Shown here piece after piece: positions 1 through 11,001 of a stretch of DNA of 26,173 bases. The stretch's first letter is position 1. Every line of letters starts with the position of its first letter. The position numbers and the translations under genes were made by a program. Source of the stretch: a bacterium (GTDB lineage: Bacteria; Zhuqueibacterota; QNDG01; JAFGCO01); assembly GCA_016932575.1 (NCBI GenBank), contig JAFGCO010000062.1:1-26173 (forward strand). Reading direction: 5' to 3'. The notes below the pieces were generated by a model. It saw only the letters and a program-made list of their open reading frames with translations. It did no database searches and was not told the origin of the DNA.

Positions 1-1323
1 GTCAAGGTCCGCCGCGTAAACGGATGCAGCACCGTCGGCCTGTGAGGTAATCACTTTTTCTTCGGAAAAATTTCCTGATCCGTCATTCTCATACCACGCG
101 ATTTTGTCATCTTCTGCGGAAGCGGAAAACGCATCGGGATCACCGTCACCATCCAAATCGGCAGCACTGACAACCTGTGCACCACGGGCTTCCGGGTTGA
201 TGAGTCTTGGTTCAGAAATATTGTGGGTTGGAAGAATATAGAATATACAACCGAAAACAACACTGGCAAGAGACAAGAAAATGCTTAAGGGTTTTTTACC
301 AAAGTGTTTTTTCAGTAAAGTACTGAGGAAAACCCCTCCCATCATACCCAGGGTTCCGATTGTCAGGAATACAGTTGTATGATCAAAGTCGAGAACCAGC
401 GGGCCAAGAGTCCAGCGAAACATAATGTTGCTGCCATTACAGTAAACATAATCAAAGAAAAATTTTGTTGTGCCGTTCCGCATGACATTATGCGTAACCC
501 AGAATATGCAAGCAATGAATAAAATAATCCAGGGTGTGTTTCTCCGAACGTCTTTCAGATCTTCTCCGAACGAACTTTTCTGATTTTCAGGAGGTTTGAC
601 CCGTTCCCGGGTGGTCAGAAATGTAATCAACAGAAGAATAATAGCAATCGCCCCAAAAACGCCCATTGTCACCTGATAGCCCAGAGCCTGACTATATCCC
701 AATTCTGCGTTGTATCCCGGATGAGACGGATTTGATCCGAAGAATCTCGCCAGGGGAATGGTAAAGGTGGTAATTAACATTGCGCCTACAAAGGCAAAAA
801 AGAAACGATACTGAGACAGTGTTGTTCGTTCTTTTGGATTCGGTGTCATCACTGCCATCATGGATGAATAGGGAATGTTGATGGCAGTGTAAGCCATTGT
901 CGCCAGAATATAAGTCACATATGCATACACCACTTTCATGTTCTGGTTTAATTCAGGAGTAATGAACATCGCACATGCGAGTATCCCATAGGGAACAGCC
1001 ATCCATAAAAGGTATGGCCGGAATTTACCCCAGCGGGTATTGGTACGATCTGCAATCATTCCCATGATGGGATCGTTAATCATATCCCAGACACGGGTGA
1101 TTAAAAACATAAAGCTGGCCACTTTTAAATCAATTCCGAATATGTCCGTATAAAATATGGTAAGAAAAAAGCTCCATGCCTGATACAGGATATTGGATGC
1201 TGTATCTCCCAGTCCGTATCCGACTTTTTCGATGACAGATAATTGTCCGCCCCCTTCATTAAAAGATGCTTTTCGGGTATCAGATGTAACATCTTTCGAA
1301 GTTGAGTTGATATTTGACCTCAT
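1..1323 (-). CDS. GPH-family (MFS) sugar:cation symporter with FG-GAP-like insert, partial
   Basis: Open from ATG at 1323 to the window edge (441 codons, no stop), so the C-terminus is missing. The glycoside-pentoside-hexuronide symporter fold is visible: an N-terminal YGLGDTASN motif (about 36-44), the cytoplasmic loop 2-3 motif DRTNTRWGKFRP (92-103), and hydrophobic segments at about 45-62, 68-88, 103-122, 131-152, 172-192, 216-237, 264-282, 316-336 and 345-364, i.e. TM1-9. After TM9, instead of a short loop, residues 370-441 read as FG-GAP/VCBS-like repeat: DLDGDGDPD at 389-397, then KIAWYENDGSG, and a second copy begins with AADLD at the edge. By topology this loop faces outward. A ribosome binding site AAGGAG lies 11 bases before the ATG. 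It is divergent from the pectinase genes and likely imports their sugar products; the substrate is inferred from context only. Confidence 0.85.
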   Translation of the reverse strand, partial: MRSNINSTSKDVTSDTRKASFNEGGGQLSVIEKVGYGLGDTASNILYQAWSFFLTIFYTDIFGIDLKVASFMFLITRVWDMINDPIMGMIADRTNTRWGKFRPYLLWMAVPYGILACAMFITPELNQNMKVVYAYVTYILATMAYTAINIPYSSMMAVMTPNPKERTTLSQYRFFFAFVGAMLITTFTIPLARFFGSNPSHPGYNAELGYSQALGYQVTMGVFGAIAIILLLITFLTTRERVKPPENQKSSFGEDLKDVRRNTPWIILFIACIFWVTHNVMRNGTTKFFFDYVYCNGSNIMFRWTLGPLVLDFDHTTVFLTIGTLGMMGGVFLSTLLKKHFGKKPLSIFLSLASVVFGCIFYILPTHNISEPRLINPEARGAQVVSAADLDGDGDPDAFSASAEDDKIAWYENDGSGNFSEEKVITSQADGAASVYAADLD

Positions 1324-2928: not shown

Positions 2929-4056
2929 ATGAAATATTATCCGTCAATAGGTCTTTTATTCATACTGTTTCTCTGGAGCCCTGCTTTCACACTTGAACGG
3001 CCGGACAAAACCTTTAAAATTTTTCAATTTCCCGCGCAAATGATTCCGCGCATCGATGGTGATGCAAGTGACTGGGATTGTGTCCCTGATGCATATAAAA
3101 TCCGAACAGATCAGCTTGTTGATGATGAGGGGCATCATGAGAAACCGAATCCGGAATCTTTGGATATCTGTGTCCGTGTGGGTTGGGTTCGTGGCTTCAC
3201 CCGCCTCTATTTTCTCTATGAAGCCTTTGATGATTACTGGGACTTTTCTTTGCCGGATCTTCATAATGATACCTTTGAGCTGGTTGTGGACGGTGATGCT
3301 TCAGGAGGCCCTCTCATAGATTGGGAGCATCATAAAATATGGACATCTCAGGAAGTAGGTATAAGCCGTGCCGCTGACGACAAGAGAATCCGGCTCTCAG
3401 ATGCAAACTGGGCAATTCATGGTGTGCATGCACAAAATTATCATATTTTCACACCGGCTGAAGGGAAGGTATGGACCCTGGTCTGGGGAGTTCAGCCATG
3501 GATCAAGGAGCTGCCCTTTGCTAACGCGGTTTGTGATTATCATTTTAAACCGGGGGAATCCGGGAAACTGGTTCTTGAGTTCTGGATCACACCATTTGAT
3601 TATGCCGGTCCGGAAGGGCCTTGCAGGGCTGTTCAGTCTGTGCTCGAGGAAAATAAAATTATCGGATTGTCTTTTGCGGTACTCGATTATGATGATGTTC
3701 TCGGCAGTCAAAAAGATGGATTCTGGAATCTCTCAAGAGAGCATAAAATGTATGGTAATGCGTCTTACCTGTGCGCCTTCCAGCTGATGCCGTTTGAACC
3801 TGGTTTTAATCAGTCAATCCGGGCAGACTGGTCTTTCAGAGTCATCGATATGAATTGTCGCAGCGTGGCATTTCAGGATCATTCGATCGGAAAGATCACG
3901 TCCTGGGAATGGGACTTTGGAGACGGCACCACCTCCAAGGAACAGCACCCTATCCATATTTATCAAAAAGCGGGAACCTATACAGTTATTCTGAATGTGA
4001 AAGGTCCAGGCGGAAGCTCACGTTTGTCCAAAGTATGGGAGATCACTGTAAAATAA
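2929..4056 (+). CDS. Secreted CBM9-like (DOMON-type) binding protein with C-terminal PKD domain
   Basis: 375 residues with a hydrophobic signal peptide at 1-20. The N-terminal domain opens with IPRIDGDASDWD (39-50), the usual entry strand of CBM9-like/DUF1083 sugar-binding domains, and continues through about residue 295 with YFLYEAFDDYW and NDTFELVVDGD segments typical of the fold. The last 50 residues form a PKD domain: WEWDFGDGTTS from 326 and a YQKAGTYTVILNV strand. I see no glycosidase catalytic signature, so binding or tethering of pectic chains, or a scaffold role, is inferred. AAAGGA at 2917-2922 is a good ribosome binding site. It is sandwiched between two GH28 genes and probably co-transcribed with them (gap to the next gene about 50 bases). 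The family assignment of the N-terminal domain is from motif memory, not a search. Confidence 0.7.
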   Translation: MKYYPSIGLLFILFLWSPAFTLERPDKTFKIFQFPAQMIPRIDGDASDWDCVPDAYKIRTDQLVDDEGHHEKPNPESLDICVRVGWVRGFTRLYFLYEAFDDYWDFSLPDLHNDTFELVVDGDASGGPLIDWEHHKIWTSQEVGISRAADDKRIRLSDANWAIHGVHAQNYHIFTPAEGKVWTLVWGVQPWIKELPFANAVCDYHFKPGESGKLVLEFWITPFDYAGPEGPCRAVQSVLEENKIIGLSFAVLDYDDVLGSQKDGFWNLSREHKMYGNASYLCAFQLMPFEPGFNQSIRADWSFRVIDMNCRSVAFQDHSIGKITSWEWDFGDGTTSKEQHPIHIYQKAGTYTVILNVKGPGGSSRLSKVWEITVK

Positions 4057-4108: not shown

Positions 4109-5647
4109 ATGATTGTAAACAGGCACATTCAAAAATTAATTCCTGTTTTACTGTTTTTGATCGCAGGAATACGAATTTTTGCCTCTGACTATAATGTAAA
4201 AAACTATGGCGCTGTCGGAGACGGAAAAACGATTGACTCGCCTGCCATTAACAGAGCCATCAATGCGGCAGCAGAAGCGGGAGGCGGTACGGTTTATTTT
4301 CCTGCAGGCACGTATTTGAGTTTTTCAATACGGCTGAAAAGTCATATCGGATTATATCTGGATCATGGCGCGGTAATCCTGGCCGCAAATCACGAGGAAT
4401 ATGAGGGCGGTTATGATCCGGCAGAACCGAACGAATGGGACAGGTATCAGGATCACGGACACAGCCATTGGCACAACAGTTTAATCTGGGGTGAAGGTTT
4501 GGATGATATCTCAATTTCAGGTTCAGGCAGGATTTTCGGTCAGGGACTTCAGCGCTGGGATACGGACGAAGTCGGTGCAGGAAACAAAGCAATAGCACTG
4601 AAGCATTGCCGCAATGTAACGATCAGGGATATCACCATGCAGACATGCGGGCATTTCTGTATTTTACCTACAGGTGTGGATAACTTTACCATTGATAATC
4701 TCAGGATCGATACCAACCGGGATGCAATCAATGTGGACTGCTGCAGAAATGTGACCATTTCCAATTGTCTGATCAATACACACAATGATGATGCCATTGT
4801 ACTGAAAAGCTCTTATGCTTTGGGGTTTGCGCGAGTGACTGAAAATGTTACGATCACCAATTGTCTTGTGAGCGGTTATGATGAGAATACCCTGCTGGAC
4901 GGCACATTTCAAACAAAAGATGATCGGGTACCCGACCACGGCGGGACGACCGGCCGCATCAAATTCGGCACAGAATCGAATGGCGGATTCAGAAACATTA
5001 CAATTTCAAATTGTACATTTGAGCACTGCCGCGGTCTTGCGCTGGAAACTGTGGATGGCGGAATTCTCGAAGACGTGACCATATCCAATATAACCATGCA
5101 TGATATCACCAATTCACCCATTTTTCTCAGGCTGGGGCGGCGTATGCGTGCCCCGGAGAGTACGGCAATCGGTAAAATGCGCCGTATCAATATCAGCAAC
5201 GTGGTTATAAACAATGCAAATCCCGAATCCGCCTCGTTAATTGTGGGTATTCCGGGTCATGACATTGAAGATATCAAGCTGAGCCATATCCAGATCCTGG
5301 TAAAAGGAGGCGCACCAAAAGAATATGTTGATATTCAGGTTCCCGAATTGGAAGAGGGATATCCTGATCCGCGGTTTTTTGGAAAAATACCGGCATACGG
5401 TTTTTTTATCCGGCATGCGGATGGTATTGAGTTCAGTGATGTGAAAGTGAAATTTATGGATACGGACTTTAGGCCGGCGTTTGTGCTGGAGGATGTGAAG
5501 AATGCGGCATTCAATTGTGTGAAGGCTCAAAAGGTGAAAGACGTGCCCGCATTCATATTAAAGGATGTCAGGGATTTCACTTTAAACCAGTGTGAAGACA
5601 TAGAGGACCTTACAATTACAAATACGAATAAGCAGGAGATATATTGA
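4109..5647 (+). CDS. Secreted GH28-like beta-helix protein with atypical active site
   Basis: 512 residues with a signal peptide of about 25 residues (cleavage IFA|S) and the GH28 entry motif VKNYGAVGDGKTID. Two of the GH28 acid motifs are clear: TNRDAIN (202-208, D205) and NDD (226-228). The position of the canonical GHG is occupied by GRIKFGTES (282-290), with no histidine, and the RxK strand by RGLALETVDGG (308-318). Such sequences form a divergent GH28 group, so hydrolase activity on a rhamnogalacturonan- or galacturonide-type substrate is likely, but specificity is open. Repeated N[VI]TI[ST]NC turns are the beta-helix rungs. AAAGGA at 4095-4100 supports the ATG at 4109. It is only distantly like the upstream GH28, so this is not a recent tandem duplication. 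The gene ends 119 bases before the GH2 gene. Confidence 0.82.
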   Translation: MIVNRHIQKLIPVLLFLIAGIRIFASDYNVKNYGAVGDGKTIDSPAINRAINAAAEAGGGTVYFPAGTYLSFSIRLKSHIGLYLDHGAVILAANHEEYEGGYDPAEPNEWDRYQDHGHSHWHNSLIWGEGLDDISISGSGRIFGQGLQRWDTDEVGAGNKAIALKHCRNVTIRDITMQTCGHFCILPTGVDNFTIDNLRIDTNRDAINVDCCRNVTISNCLINTHNDDAIVLKSSYALGFARVTENVTITNCLVSGYDENTLLDGTFQTKDDRVPDHGGTTGRIKFGTESNGGFRNITISNCTFEHCRGLALETVDGGILEDVTISNITMHDITNSPIFLRLGRRMRAPESTAIGKMRRINISNVVINNANPESASLIVGIPGHDIEDIKLSHIQILVKGGAPKEYVDIQVPELEEGYPDPRFFGKIPAYGFFIRHADGIEFSDVKVKFMDTDFRPAFVLEDVKNAAFNCVKAQKVKDVPAFILKDVRDFTLNQCEDIEDLTITNTNKQEIY

Positions 5648-5766: not shown

Positions 5767-8751
5767 ATGAAACCGAATGATAAAAATCGCGTAATTCAGA
5801 ACTGTCTCCATTTAACGGCTATTTTTATCCTGATCGCGTATGTATCTGTTTACGCTCGTATCAAATACAATTTCAATCCCGGATGGCTGGTATTTGTGGG
5901 TGATACGATTGGCATTGAGTCAGTCGATTATAATGATTCCGGCTGGCAATCAATAACACTTCCTCATGCCTGGAATGAGAATGAGGCATTTAAACTGGAT
6001 ATTCACGACCTTTCCACAGGCATCGCCTGGTACCGTAAACATTTCAAGATTTCAAAGGCTTTCTGCGGAAAAAAAGTGTTCATTGAATTTGAAGGTGTGC
6101 GCCAGGCCGGTGAAATATTCGTCAATGGTGAATTTGTCGGATTGCATGAAAATGGCGTGATGGCATTCGGATATGATATCACAGACAAAGTTAAATTTTA
6201 TCCGGCAGAAAATGTCATTGCAGTACGCACAGACAATTCCTGGGACTATTGTGAGAGATCAACCGGCACACGGTATCAATGGCATAATGACAACTTCAAT
6301 GCCAATTATGGCGGCATTCCGAAAAATACCTGGCTGTATATTATGGATAAACTGTATCAGACCCTGCCATTGTACAGTGATCTTGGCACGACGGGTCAGT
6401 ATATCTATGCAGAAAACATTGATATTAAAAACCGGTCTGCCGAAATCACGGCTGAAACACAGGTGAAAAATGAGTATCCAACCTCAGTAATATGTCAATA
6501 TATCGTGCATATCGAAGATATGAACAGCAGGCGTATTAAAACAATTGATGGTGGCAAGCGAAAGATTGCACCGGGAGAAACCCGAATCTTAAGGGCAGGT
6601 GCATCTGTGGATTCGCTTCACTTCTGGAGCTGGGGATACGGTTATCTTTACACTGTTACAACGATTCTTCAGGCGGATGGAGAGATAATCGATATTGTAA
6701 AGACCCGTACCGGTTTCCGTAAGACAGCGTTTGCCGATGGAATGATCAAATTGAATGACAGGATTTTACTGGTGAAAGGATATGCGCAACGGACCAGCAA
6801 TGAGTGGCCCGCTGTCGGCATGTCTGTACCGCCGTGGATGAGCGATTTCAGCAATCGCATGATTGTCAGCAGCCATGGAAATCTGGTCCGCTGGATGCAT
6901 GTCACACCCTGGAAACAGGATGTGGAATCGTGTGACCGCGTGGGGCTTATACAGGCCATGCCGGCCGGCGATGCAGAGAAAGACAGTCAGGGCAGGCAGT
7001 GGGAGCAACGGATCGAGCTGATGCGAGATGCAATCATCTACAATCGCAATCATCCCAGCATACTCTTTTATGAAGCAGGCAATAAAACGATAAGTGAAGG
7101 CCATATGCAGGAAATGAAAAATATCCGTGATCAGTACGATCCTGATGGCGGGCGCGCCATAGGCTCACGCGAAATGTTAGACAGCCGGATTGCCGAGTAC
7201 GGGGGTGAAATGCTTTATGTCAACAAGAGCAGCACAATCCCAATGTGGGCCATGGAGTATATGCGTGATGAAGGCCTGCGAAAATACTGGGATGAATATT
7301 CCCCGCCTTTTCATGAGGATGGGGAGGGGCCGCTTTACAAAGGCAGAGACGCCAGCGAGTATAACCGCAATCAGGATTCATTTGCAAAAGAATGTATTGC
7401 ACGCTGGTACGATTTCTGGCGGGAACGTCCGGGTACCGGACGATTTGTGAATTCGGGCGGTGTCAAGATTATCTTTTCAGACACCAATACTCATTTTCGA
7501 GGTGCTGAAAATTATCGGCGAAGCGGTGTGGTTGATGCTTTGCGTATTCCCAAAGACGCATATTTTACCCATCAGGTTCTGTGGAACGGCTGGCTGGAAA
7601 CTGAAAAAAACAGCAGTTACATCATTGGGCACTGGAACTACGCTGAGGGTGTGATTAAAAATGTGTACGTTGTATCCACAGGCGAGAAAGTGGAATTGTT
7701 TGTCAATAATGAGTCTCGGGGGTTTGGTGAACGGGATTATCATTTTTTACATACATTTAAAGATGTCGAATGGGAAGCAGGCACGCTGAAAGCGGTAAGC
7801 TATGACGCATCGAATCGTGTCTTATGTCAGACAGAAAAAAGGACTTCAGGTCGACCAGAAGGAATCAAACTGACGCTTCATACCCATCCTGAAGGATTCA
7901 GAGCTGACGGTGCAGATTTGGCCCTTGTCGATGTGGAGGTAGTTGACGCCGATGGTTGCCGTTGCCCGACCTCGAATGCGATGATCGACTTCGAGCTTAA
8001 CGGGCCGGCAGAGTGGCGCGGCGGTATTGCAAAGGGTTCGGATAATTATATCCTTTCAAAAAGCCTGCCGGTTGAATGCGGGATCAATCGTGTTATTCTC
8101 CGGTCGGTTCCTGAAGAGGGGCAAATCAGTTTGACGGCCAGATCTGATGGACTTAAATGCGGCGTAATGAAATTAGAATCGCATTCAGTAAAAATGACCG
8201 AAGGACTTTCGCTTGATATTCCGGATACGGGGTTGCCCTCATTTTTAGAATATGGGCCGACGCCTGATACACAGGAGATAAAAACAACCCGTCGCTCTGT
8301 TAAAATTGTCAATGCCATTGCAGGGAGCAATCAAAATGATGCCATCTTTAGTTATGACGGCAATCAGGTAACCCGCTGGACCAATGCCGGGGATTGCTCA
8401 AAAGCCTGGATCATGTATGAATTTGAAAAAGAAACCCGGATCAATCAGATCGCAATTAAATTAAGCGGATGGCGAACCAGACGTTACCCTGTTGTTGTCA
8501 AAGCCGGAGATAAAGCGGTGTTCACCGGATTGACCAAACGGAATCTTGGTTATTTTTATATCCTGTTTGAACCTCTCAAGGCGGACCATATTTCAATCCG
8601 GCTTTTAGGAGAAAGAGAATACAAAGAAATGTTTGATTTCAATGAGATCACAAGCCACCTGGACAAGGAGACACAGAGTGATCAACAGGTCAGGAATGTC
8701 GAGAAGCTGAACATTGTCGATGTTGAGGTGTTTTTTAAGCAGGATCAATGA
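5767..8751 (+). CDS. Secreted glycoside hydrolase family 2 enzyme with C-terminal F5/8C-like domain
   Basis: 994 residues with a signal peptide ending near VYA (28-30). Domain order: GH2 jelly-roll sugar-binding domain (about 35-195, with WYRKHF and FEGVRQAGEIFVNG), Ig-like domain (about 210-320), TIM barrel (about 325-615), a DUF4982-like/Ig-like region (about 640-800), and a C-terminal discoidin-like F5/8C module (about 840-950, with FSYDGNQVTRWTNAG). The family acid/base strand reads NHPSILFYEAGNK: the position that is Glu in classical GH2 (GNE) is Lys440. The likely nucleophile is E497 in WAMEYM. Galactosidase-type activity is the usual annotation; the real linkage is unknown. AAGG five bases upstream fits the ATG. 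Context points to side-chain trimming of pectin. Confidence 0.83.
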   Translation: MKPNDKNRVIQNCLHLTAIFILIAYVSVYARIKYNFNPGWLVFVGDTIGIESVDYNDSGWQSITLPHAWNENEAFKLDIHDLSTGIAWYRKHFKISKAFCGKKVFIEFEGVRQAGEIFVNGEFVGLHENGVMAFGYDITDKVKFYPAENVIAVRTDNSWDYCERSTGTRYQWHNDNFNANYGGIPKNTWLYIMDKLYQTLPLYSDLGTTGQYIYAENIDIKNRSAEITAETQVKNEYPTSVICQYIVHIEDMNSRRIKTIDGGKRKIAPGETRILRAGASVDSLHFWSWGYGYLYTVTTILQADGEIIDIVKTRTGFRKTAFADGMIKLNDRILLVKGYAQRTSNEWPAVGMSVPPWMSDFSNRMIVSSHGNLVRWMHVTPWKQDVESCDRVGLIQAMPAGDAEKDSQGRQWEQRIELMRDAIIYNRNHPSILFYEAGNKTISEGHMQEMKNIRDQYDPDGGRAIGSREMLDSRIAEYGGEMLYVNKSSTIPMWAMEYMRDEGLRKYWDEYSPPFHEDGEGPLYKGRDASEYNRNQDSFAKECIARWYDFWRERPGTGRFVNSGGVKIIFSDTNTHFRGAENYRRSGVVDALRIPKDAYFTHQVLWNGWLETEKNSSYIIGHWNYAEGVIKNVYVVSTGEKVELFVNNESRGFGERDYHFLHTFKDVEWEAGTLKAVSYDASNRVLCQTEKRTSGRPEGIKLTLHTHPEGFRADGADLALVDVEVVDADGCRCPTSNAMIDFELNGPAEWRGGIAKGSDNYILSKSLPVECGINRVILRSVPEEGQISLTARSDGLKCGVMKLESHSVKMTEGLSLDIPDTGLPSFLEYGPTPDTQEIKTTRRSVKIVNAIAGSNQNDAIFSYDGNQVTRWTNAGDCSKAWIMYEFEKETRINQIAIKLSGWRTRRYPVVVKAGDKAVFTGLTKRNLGYFYILFEPLKADHISIRLLGEREYKEMFDFNEITSHLDKETQSDQQVRNVEKLNIVDVEVFFKQDQ

Positions 8752-8868: not shown

Positions 8869-11001
8869 ATGAAAATAGTGAAAAAATTTTTATGTGTTTT
8901 TATGTTGATGACTCTTTCTCTATGTACAAAAAGACCCTGTCAGGAATCCGGAGAACCGGGTCTGGATGAGATTGCCGAAAATTTTCAGTCGCCCCCGATA
9001 GAATACAGCATGACTTTTTATTGGGGATGGGATGGAGAAGTGACCGAAGAAGTCATTGCCCGGGATCTGGATGCTTTTAAGATGCGGGGGGTTCATATAG
9101 TCACCCTGGAGCCGGGTTATGATATGGGCCATCCCTATCTGTCCGAAGGCTGGCTGAAAATGGTCAGGCGTACAGTGGAACTGGCCGGCGAAAGAGACAT
9201 GCGTGTCTGGATCGTGGATGAGGGGAAATATCCCAGTGGATTCGCCGGGGGAAAATTTACAACTGACGCGCCGGAATTAAGAATGAAGGCCCTCATCATA
9301 GACGACCGAATCGCGATCTCAGGCGGAGAGACGCTGAAGCAGTGCCTTTCCGAAGATGTTGTGAGTGCCGTCGCGGTCAATCAGATCGACAGCACCTGTC
9401 AGATTCTTGACATACAATCAGGAGAGCTGCGATGGAAAGCTCCCGAAGGCAGATGGCAGGTGATTCTGGTCAAACATGATTTCCGCAGTTCTCCCACCCG
9501 GGCTGTGAACAATCCCACACGCGGCAAGGATCCCAGCAATTCACTTTGTGATTATCTTGACTCTGCGGCCACACGGCAGTTTATTCAGTTTACGCATGAA
9601 CAGCATGAAAAATTTGTCGGTTCGGAATTCGGCCGAACAGTTCTGGGATTCAGGGGTGATGAACCCGATTACAGCATTCGCGGTATTCCGTGGACGCCTC
9701 AGATCTTTTCGCAGTTTCAAGAGCGCAAAGGTTATGACGTTCGGCCCTATGTCGCCGCTTTTTTTGCGCCACGGCTGACAGAAATACAAAAACGCGTGAA
9801 AGCGGATTACTGGGATGTCTGGTCTGATATGTTTGGTGAACATTTCTTCAAAGTACAGGCGGAATGGTGCGACCGTCACAATCTGGAGTATCTTGTTCAT
9901 CTGAATAAAGAAGATGATATGACAGCTCTAATTAATCATGAAGGAGATTTTTTTGAATGCATGCGGCATGTGCAAATGCCGGGAGTAGACGCTATCTGGA
10001 ATCAAATATGGCCGGACAAGATCGCAGATTATCCCAAATATGCTTCTTCGGTGTCTCATGTGTACGGCAAACCGCGTGCGTTTACCGAAAGCTTTGCCGC
10101 TTATCGGATTCCTCCGACAGTCACACAAGCCAAATGGGTTCTGGATCATCAATTCGTGCGGGGCATCAATATGGTTGAAGTGATGTTTGTCCCTGCATCC
10201 ACAACAGGTGAGCTCGGTCTGAAAGGATGGACAGCCACGGAACAGTTTTGCTCTATCGCCCGGTACGTCCATCGAGCAGCCTATCTTTTATCACAGGGAC
10301 ACCCGGCCGCCCGGATCGCTGTATACCACCCAACGACAAGTCTGTGGCTTGGAAAAAAAGAGTCGAATCAATCTGTTCTGCGATTAATGCAGCAGCTTCT
10401 TGAACATCAGCTTGATTTTGATTTTGTGGATGAAAATGCGCTCGTTTCTGTTCTCAAATTTGGAAGTGGTGAATTGATCAATCTGAGCGGACAGTCATAC
10501 ACTACAGTTATTATTCCATCTGTCAAGGCCATTTCAAAGGCAGCGATCGGTCGGTTGCGATCCTTTGCTGCTTCAGGCGGGAAGGTGGTTTTCCTTGGCA
10601 CTGAACCTTCCCTGATTGTGGAAAAGACATTCCTGAATGCATCCGGTCCGCCGGATCTCAGCTGGGCTGTCCGGGAACCCTCCGGAGATCTGACATCCCG
10701 CGTGGTCGACGCTTTTCCGCAGCCGGATATCAAGCTGAAAAATTCCTGTACTTCAATAAAATATATACACAGACACTTTAGCGATGCTGATCTGTATTTC
10801 TTTTTTAATGAAAGCAATAAGGATCAAATTCGAGAAATCATTCTTTCAGGAAGCGGTCAGGCACAGATATGGGATGCAATGAATGGAACCATTTCACCCA
10901 TTGCCACTCAATCCCCCGAAAATGGCAGGGTGAGATTGAATCTGGAACTGGATCCTTTTGAAACGAAATTCATTGTCATTGACAATATGACGTTCCGGTG
11001 A
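8869..11001 (+). CDS. GH106-like alpha-L-rhamnosidase, exported
   Basis: 710 residues. The N-terminal barrel carries MTFYWGWDGEVTEE (48-61), RDLDAFKMRGVHIV, VWIVDEGKYPSG (113-124) and VNNPTRGKDPSNSL (213-226), all in the style of GH106 enzymes, which remove alpha-L-rhamnose from rhamnogalacturonan and related glycans. Candidate catalytic glutamates are E265 (GDEPDYS) and E407 (FTESFAAY). The protein ends with LELDPFETKFIVID, a usual end strand, but it is shorter than the roughly 1000-residue family norm as I recall it, so it may be a compact subfamily. A hydrophobic leader ends at LSLC (16-19), which resembles a lipobox but has Leu before Cys, so lipoprotein status is doubtful. AAGGA at 8857-8861 supports the start. 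It ends the plus-strand catabolic run, facing a convergent minus-strand pair. Confidence 0.72.
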   Translation: MKIVKKFLCVFMLMTLSLCTKRPCQESGEPGLDEIAENFQSPPIEYSMTFYWGWDGEVTEEVIARDLDAFKMRGVHIVTLEPGYDMGHPYLSEGWLKMVRRTVELAGERDMRVWIVDEGKYPSGFAGGKFTTDAPELRMKALIIDDRIAISGGETLKQCLSEDVVSAVAVNQIDSTCQILDIQSGELRWKAPEGRWQVILVKHDFRSSPTRAVNNPTRGKDPSNSLCDYLDSAATRQFIQFTHEQHEKFVGSEFGRTVLGFRGDEPDYSIRGIPWTPQIFSQFQERKGYDVRPYVAAFFAPRLTEIQKRVKADYWDVWSDMFGEHFFKVQAEWCDRHNLEYLVHLNKEDDMTALINHEGDFFECMRHVQMPGVDAIWNQIWPDKIADYPKYASSVSHVYGKPRAFTESFAAYRIPPTVTQAKWVLDHQFVRGINMVEVMFVPASTTGELGLKGWTATEQFCSIARYVHRAAYLLSQGHPAARIAVYHPTTSLWLGKKESNQSVLRLMQQLLEHQLDFDFVDENALVSVLKFGSGELINLSGQSYTTVIIPSVKAISKAAIGRLRSFAASGGKVVFLGTEPSLIVEKTFLNASGPPDLSWAVREPSGDLTSRVVDAFPQPDIKLKNSCTSIKYIHRHFSDADLYFFFNESNKDQIREIILSGSGQAQIWDAMNGTISPIATQSPENGRVRLNLELDPFETKFIVIDNMTFR

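Follow-up and report, generated by a model that had tools for sequence, protein, structure and literature searches.

As a rule, MFS transporters are helix bundles with little else attached; insertion of large ectodomains into the fold is best known from animals (PepT1 and PepT2), and FG-GAP/VCBS propellers are normally domains of secreted proteins. Here, we ask whether a bacterial reading frame that runs from a GPH sugar symporter straight into FG-GAP repeats encodes a genuine protein, how that protein is built and what its propeller might do. Nothing was found in the open-access literature on bacterial GPH symporters with FG-GAP repeats, ectodomains or MFS domain insertions.

The stretch of DNA analysed (the window; 26,173 nucleotides) comes from a genome of 4.41 Mb in 72 contigs; it starts at the first base of contig C13, and the rest of the gene lies outside it. 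A minus-strand ORF at window positions 1-1323, open at the contig edge, encodes TM1-9 of a GPH symporter and then, with no break, an FG-GAP_3 repeat, with Pfam matches to MFS_2 at residues 35-367 (E = 9e-71) and to FG-GAP_3 at residues 389-441 (E = 2e-11), so that the unbroken frame described in an earlier note on this DNA was borne out. The part that encodes a GPH:cation symporter from its start codon to the end of TM9 (residues 1-368; 220-1323, minus strand) covers positions 1-312 of the 427 in the MFS_2 profile, and the core is 71-73% identical to uninserted KSB1 orthologues. Positions 1-222 (minus strand) encode the first 1.5 units of an FG-GAP/VCBS propeller in the TM9-TM10 loop, recognised by the FG-GAP_3 match, by a DLDGDGD motif and by homology to the relative L138 described below, and cut by the contig edge. 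At the left junction (FYILPTHN/ISEPRL, the slash marking the boundary) the insert starts at about position 222, the codon for N368: the earlier note had rightly placed it after TM9, and its proposed start at 213 was a few bases out. A second repeat does begin where expected, some 49 residues on, the measured period being 49-50 residues.

Where, then, is the other half of the symporter? A search of the same genome matched window positions 1-94 to the right-hand terminus of contig C62 (94 bp, 97% identical, three mismatches in 94 positions). By ORF reading, a minus-strand frame there (L028 5731-6681), also open at the contig edge, holds the remaining repeats and, beyond a right junction reading DSSLN/LTLLLL, a stretch beginning NLTLLLLFNFIWSLIAGAMPVF that corresponds to TM10-12 and the C-terminus; the MFS_2 profile is divided between the contigs, positions 1-312 in C13 and 313-427 in C62. 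Helices TM10-12, predicted to lie beyond the repeats, are thus present, both here and in the intact L138. Because 3 of the 94 positions differ, the two contig ends represent either strain copies or neighbouring units; neighbouring, near-identical units, with at least one unit lost in the gap, are more likely than divergent strain copies of one place. The propeller of this genome has at least four units, probably five or six. Elsewhere in the same genome, the gene for a secreted FG-GAP protein (G000:C59 1-2435, L029), with 14 repeats and then a PKD-like stretch, is also cut by a contig edge, indicating that repeat arrays break up this assembly.

Scanning genome contigs with TM1-9 led to L138 (contig JAFGBG010000014.1), from a metagenome-assembled genome labelled Sedimentisphaerales, Planctomycetota, a phylum label that rests on metagenome binning, as that of the window genome rests on its relatives; both insert bearers are metagenome assemblies. 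In L138, the whole protein is one ORF of 825 residues on one contig, 83% identical to that of the window over TM1-9 and 76% over TM10-12, and this single chain matches both MFS_2, in two stretches, and FG-GAP_3. Its insert, in the same loop, comprises 332 residues (363-694) forming six FG-GAP/VCBS units of 50 residues, the last behind a longer spacer. The L138 junctions (LPQYN/LSKQ on the left, DSAFN/LMLLLL on the right) correspond to a point at which uninserted relatives read LPxxNF/VLL; judged from these residues, the insertion is clean and at the same place in both bearers.

A join lying close to a contig edge, within near-identical repeats, together with the inexact overlap of the C13 and C62 ends, could suggest an assembly chimera that joins a symporter gene to one for a secreted FG-GAP protein. 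We consider this exceedingly improbable: in the separately assembled L138 a single ORF spans both junctions, at the same residues, the MFS_2 profile is broken between C13 and C62 at exactly 312/313, and the order of the symporter gene and its GH112 neighbour is kept. The misassembly or frameshift near position 213 that the earlier note had considered, whether a false join or a fusion of two genes, is ruled out by L138. Because the same hybrid gene is intact in a bacterium of another phylum, the symporter-propeller hybrid is a real and maintained protein.

The transport core was assigned by profile, motif and model. L138 scores 363.6 bits against TIGR00792 (cut-off 231), which places it among GPH cation:sugar symporters, and 314 bits against MFS_2 (cut-off 27), for which the window half scores 239 bits and the C62 half 71 bits. 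The helix II cation-site motif (WDxxxDP) is present as WDMINDP, with the second aspartate invariant in the alignment; we take the two aspartates to be Asp55 and Asp59 of MelB. An AF2 model of full L138, of moderate confidence (pLDDT 63, pTM 0.56, 12 sequences), has twelve membrane helices outside the insert and an insert that is almost wholly beta. Its top PDB matches are MelB structures (E 2e-9 to 1e-8, MelB-normalised TM 0.78-0.81; 0.79-0.81 for 9oli, 9old and 7l16), with PepT2 and PepT1 also among the matches; as modelled, the core is a 12-TM MelB fold, recovered across the insert. In MelB, loops behind odd-numbered helices face outward. Alignment to MelB and positive-inside counts (29 K/R inside against 8 outside, insert left aside) put the insert on the outer side between TM9 and TM10, in keeping with the outward-facing loop predicted earlier. 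We are all but certain that this is a 12-helix GPH (MelB-type) symporter with a whole Ca2+-type FG-GAP/VCBS propeller in its extracytoplasmic TM9-TM10 loop. It shares the transport core, the twelve helices and the MelB fold with other GPH symporters (MelB, TIGR00792, PF13347), whereas ordinary members lack the insert and the hybrid has 332 extra residues in loop 9-10.

The propeller itself is built from repeated FG-GAP_3 (PF13517) units, which score 160 bits over four stretches in L138, 69 bits over two stretches in C62 and 45 bits in the window. DxDxDG motifs of loop AB number six in L138 (one of them DxDxDK), one in C13 and three in C62 (two degenerate), and the insert is strongly acidic, with 72 D/E against 24 K/R. 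Modelled alone, using an alignment that included secreted FG-GAP arrays from the window genome, the L138 insert (pLDDT 81, pTM 0.81) shows repeated four-stranded units and a long hairpin, and is predicted to fold as a closed propeller of four-stranded blades. VIA aligned it along its whole length with aldos-2-ulose dehydratase (4a7k; Z 27.0, 301 residues, 3.1 A) and also matched it to the LGI1 and integrin propellers; because many propellers score alike, these matches show fold, not function. VCBS propellers are reported to multiply individual internal blades, and those that are highly repetitive have a median of six (PMC9218822); the near-identical internal units found here fit that pattern. 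The repeat profile, DxDxDG loops, predicted propeller and local blade amplification are thus shared with VCBS/FG-GAP_3 propellers such as PVL, AAL2, aldos-2-ulose dehydratase and integrin alpha; characterised examples, however, are soluble or carried on secreted or ectodomain chains, whereas this ring is built into a polytopic transporter.

These comparisons bear on one possible role: the propeller could bind glycans in the manner of a lectin, catching pectic oligosaccharides close to the path of the substrate and concentrating them there. In Foldseek searches with the insert, the lectins PVL, AAL2 and PAL came first (E 1e-11 to 2e-10), ahead of scaffold and enzyme propellers and integrins; AAL2 was the sole phmmer match in the PDB below E = 0.1 (E = 0.004), and VCBS propellers are often carbohydrate binders (PMC9218822). 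However, the GW motif of loop DA', which forms the sugar pocket of PVL (PMC8023676), was absent on motif inspection from every unit of L138, C13 and C62. Its absence speaks against a PVL-type lectin, which we rejected on this motif, but leaves room for glycan sites of another kind. Glycans and proteins are both known ligands of VCBS propellers (PMC8023676, PMC9218822), and integrins, with the same fold, exemplify protein binding; we regard a lectin-like role as rather unlikely.

Has the insert been kept for a reason? Across KSB1, Bacteroidales, Planctomycetota and Acidobacteriota there are insert-free orthologues with 57-73% identity along the entire core, and in loci of this kind most of the close orthologues lack the insert. 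The two bearers group as sisters in a maximum-likelihood tree (100/98), and a single gain is enough to explain the insert. Between them, pS is 0.73-0.89, near saturation, which rules out a recent insertion, while pN is 0.11 in TM1-9 and 0.15 in TM10-12, against 0.19 in the first part of the insert and 0.31 in the last; the insert has a pN/pS of about 0.2-0.4, with most Ca2+ motifs conserved. Because synonymous sites are near saturation while the amino acids of the insert are kept, it is, by these substitution counts, old and under purifying selection, somewhat more relaxed toward its C-terminal end, and it probably moved between phyla together with the symporter gene. No third case of FG-GAP repeats joined to TM10 was among the matches listed for junction queries over 82 KSB1-phylum and 392 Planctomycetota genomes, or over 161 genomes of the order of L138 and 393 of the order of L142; a suspicious match in genome G801 proved to be an ordinary secreted FG-GAP protein.

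The insert-free close orthologues might also mean that a fragment of a secreted repeat gene recombined into a permissive loop and was kept only as harmless, a view consistent with PepT functioning without its ectodomain (PMC4597091) and with the readiness of propeller repeats to amplify (PMC9218822). We judge such a passenger quite improbable, for the reading frame of the insert is intact in both phyla although synonymous change has reached saturation, with the constraint given above and most Ca2+ motifs kept.

The neighbouring genes suggest what the symporter carries. Further along the window, all on the plus strand, lie genes for a GH28 pectinase family enzyme (1599-2852; Pfam Glyco_hydro_28, E = 2e-38), a protein with a C-terminal PKD domain (2929-4056; PKD_4, E = 1e-15), a GH28 rhamnogalacturonidase (4109-5647; NCBIfam RhamgalacuronBT4146, 727 bits, cut-off 500), a GH2 family enzyme (5767-8751; Pfam GH2 domains) and a GH106 alpha-L-rhamnosidase (8869-11001; Glyco_hydro_106, E = 4e-47), and a GH88/105-type enzyme is also found around the symporter. 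In both C62 and L138 the symporter gene is followed directly by one for a GH112 phosphorylase (in C62, 662 bits to PF09508 and 820 bits to TIGR02336, a profile named for galactosyl-N-acetylhexosamine phosphorylases); the symporter-GH112 pair recurs in KSB1, Bacteroidales, Planctomycetota and Acidobacteriota loci, some of which are duplicates of one record. GH112 also includes galactosyl-rhamnose phosphorylase, tied to rhamnogalacturonan I (PMC8950772). By its gene content, the symporter gene sits in a pectin/rhamnogalacturonan locus, and because its neighbours include GH112, the rhamnogalacturonidase, a second GH28, GH106, GH2 and the GH88/105-type enzyme, its cargo is likely galactosyl-rhamnose or a related rhamnogalacturonan fragment.

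For the propeller, the mammalian PepT1 and PepT2 (SLC15A1/2) offer a parallel: these MFS symporters, too, have an ectodomain that is rich in beta structure and folds on its own, placed in an outer loop of their C-terminal half at TM9-10, the position to which the junctions and the 29-to-8 count assign the propeller. Within their MFS fold sits an ectodomain of two Ig domains, which binds trypsin and has been proposed to dock this hydrolase at the uptake site; transport is unimpaired when the ectodomain is removed (PMC4597091). The likeness is one of mechanism, not homology: PepT1 and PepT2 are peptide transporters of the POT family in animals, and their two Ig-like domains have no sequence relation to the propeller symporter. 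By this analogy we favour docking over glycan capture and over a harmless passenger, as a candidate role falling just short of an even chance. Of the two roles raised in the earlier note, hydrolase docking has a precedent in PepT1 and PepT2, while oligosaccharide capture is weakened by the missing GW motif. The insert may be dispensable for transport, since removal of the PepT ectodomain leaves transport unimpaired (PMC4597091); it could also bind glycan or cation only, or act as a spacer.

Our overall explanation, a propeller-bearing GPH symporter whose ring is a docking platform for a partner at the transporter mouth, seems to us about as probable as its negation. Under this docking model, the core would import galactosyl-rhamnose or a related rhamnogalacturonan fragment, which the adjacent GH112 phosphorylase would split in the cytoplasm. 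The ring would sit on the outer face of the carrier, tied by very short linkers at both ends, which is possible because the termini of a propeller meet. It would translocate nothing itself. Its task would be to keep a partner that is secreted or periplasmic, most likely an enzyme that degrades pectin or a component of the cell envelope, at the mouth of the transporter, and products would be released right at their site of uptake. Present in two phyla beside pectin-degrading enzymes, the propeller symporter offers a compact test case for transporters that recruit enzymes or glycans directly.

Other GPH symporters also carry inserts, which we sampled by long reading frame rather than as a census, with no prevalence implied. 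Arrays of Ig (Big_9-like) domains of about 260-300 residues lie in the TM5-6 loop of L030 (same genome as the window; gene at L030:3321-5600), L135, L137, L165, L177-L180, L191 and L193-L195, in KSB1, Planctomycetota and Bacteroidales genomes, and L136 has a short Ig insert there. Each array starts and ends mid-repeat, so that its two halves of a repeat could together complete a single domain at the membrane. Such symporters resemble the propeller symporter in family and in bearing adhesion-type beta domains in an extracytoplasmic loop, but the loop and the fold differ and they are far more widespread. The window genome also has, at L031:2035-3717 (minus strand), a GPH symporter whose TM5-6 loop holds about 110 inserted residues, charged and probably helical; a helical insert in the same loop is seen in part in L181. 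A GPH symporter at L182:434-2410 (minus strand) has a beta-rich insert in the TM7-8 loop (residues about 282-470), by eye a CBM6/35-type sandwich, for which we found no Pfam match and no PDB sequence match.

All inserts seen in these GPH symporters lie in outer loops. Tentatively, and with well under even confidence, we suggest that the GPH symporters found in KSB1, Planctomycetota and Bacteroidales make up a modular class. Its members would accept ready-made binding domains solely in outer loops: Ig arrays in loop 5-6, a beta-rich domain in loop 7-8 and a VCBS propeller in loop 9-10. If so, these would be hybrids of transporter and receptor, drawing enzymes or glycans to where import takes place. 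That relatives of the propeller symporter have Ig arrays in a different outer loop suggests a wider design, which annotation pipelines overlook by reporting separate domains. A further insert adjoins the propeller-bearing symporter at L138:3625-5643 (minus strand), in an SSS sodium/solute symporter with an ACP-like domain at residues 335-408 (NCBIfam ACP, E = 8e-14): relatives (55-72%) match residues 1-331 and 409-672 and little or nothing between, so the ACP-like domain is a clean insert.
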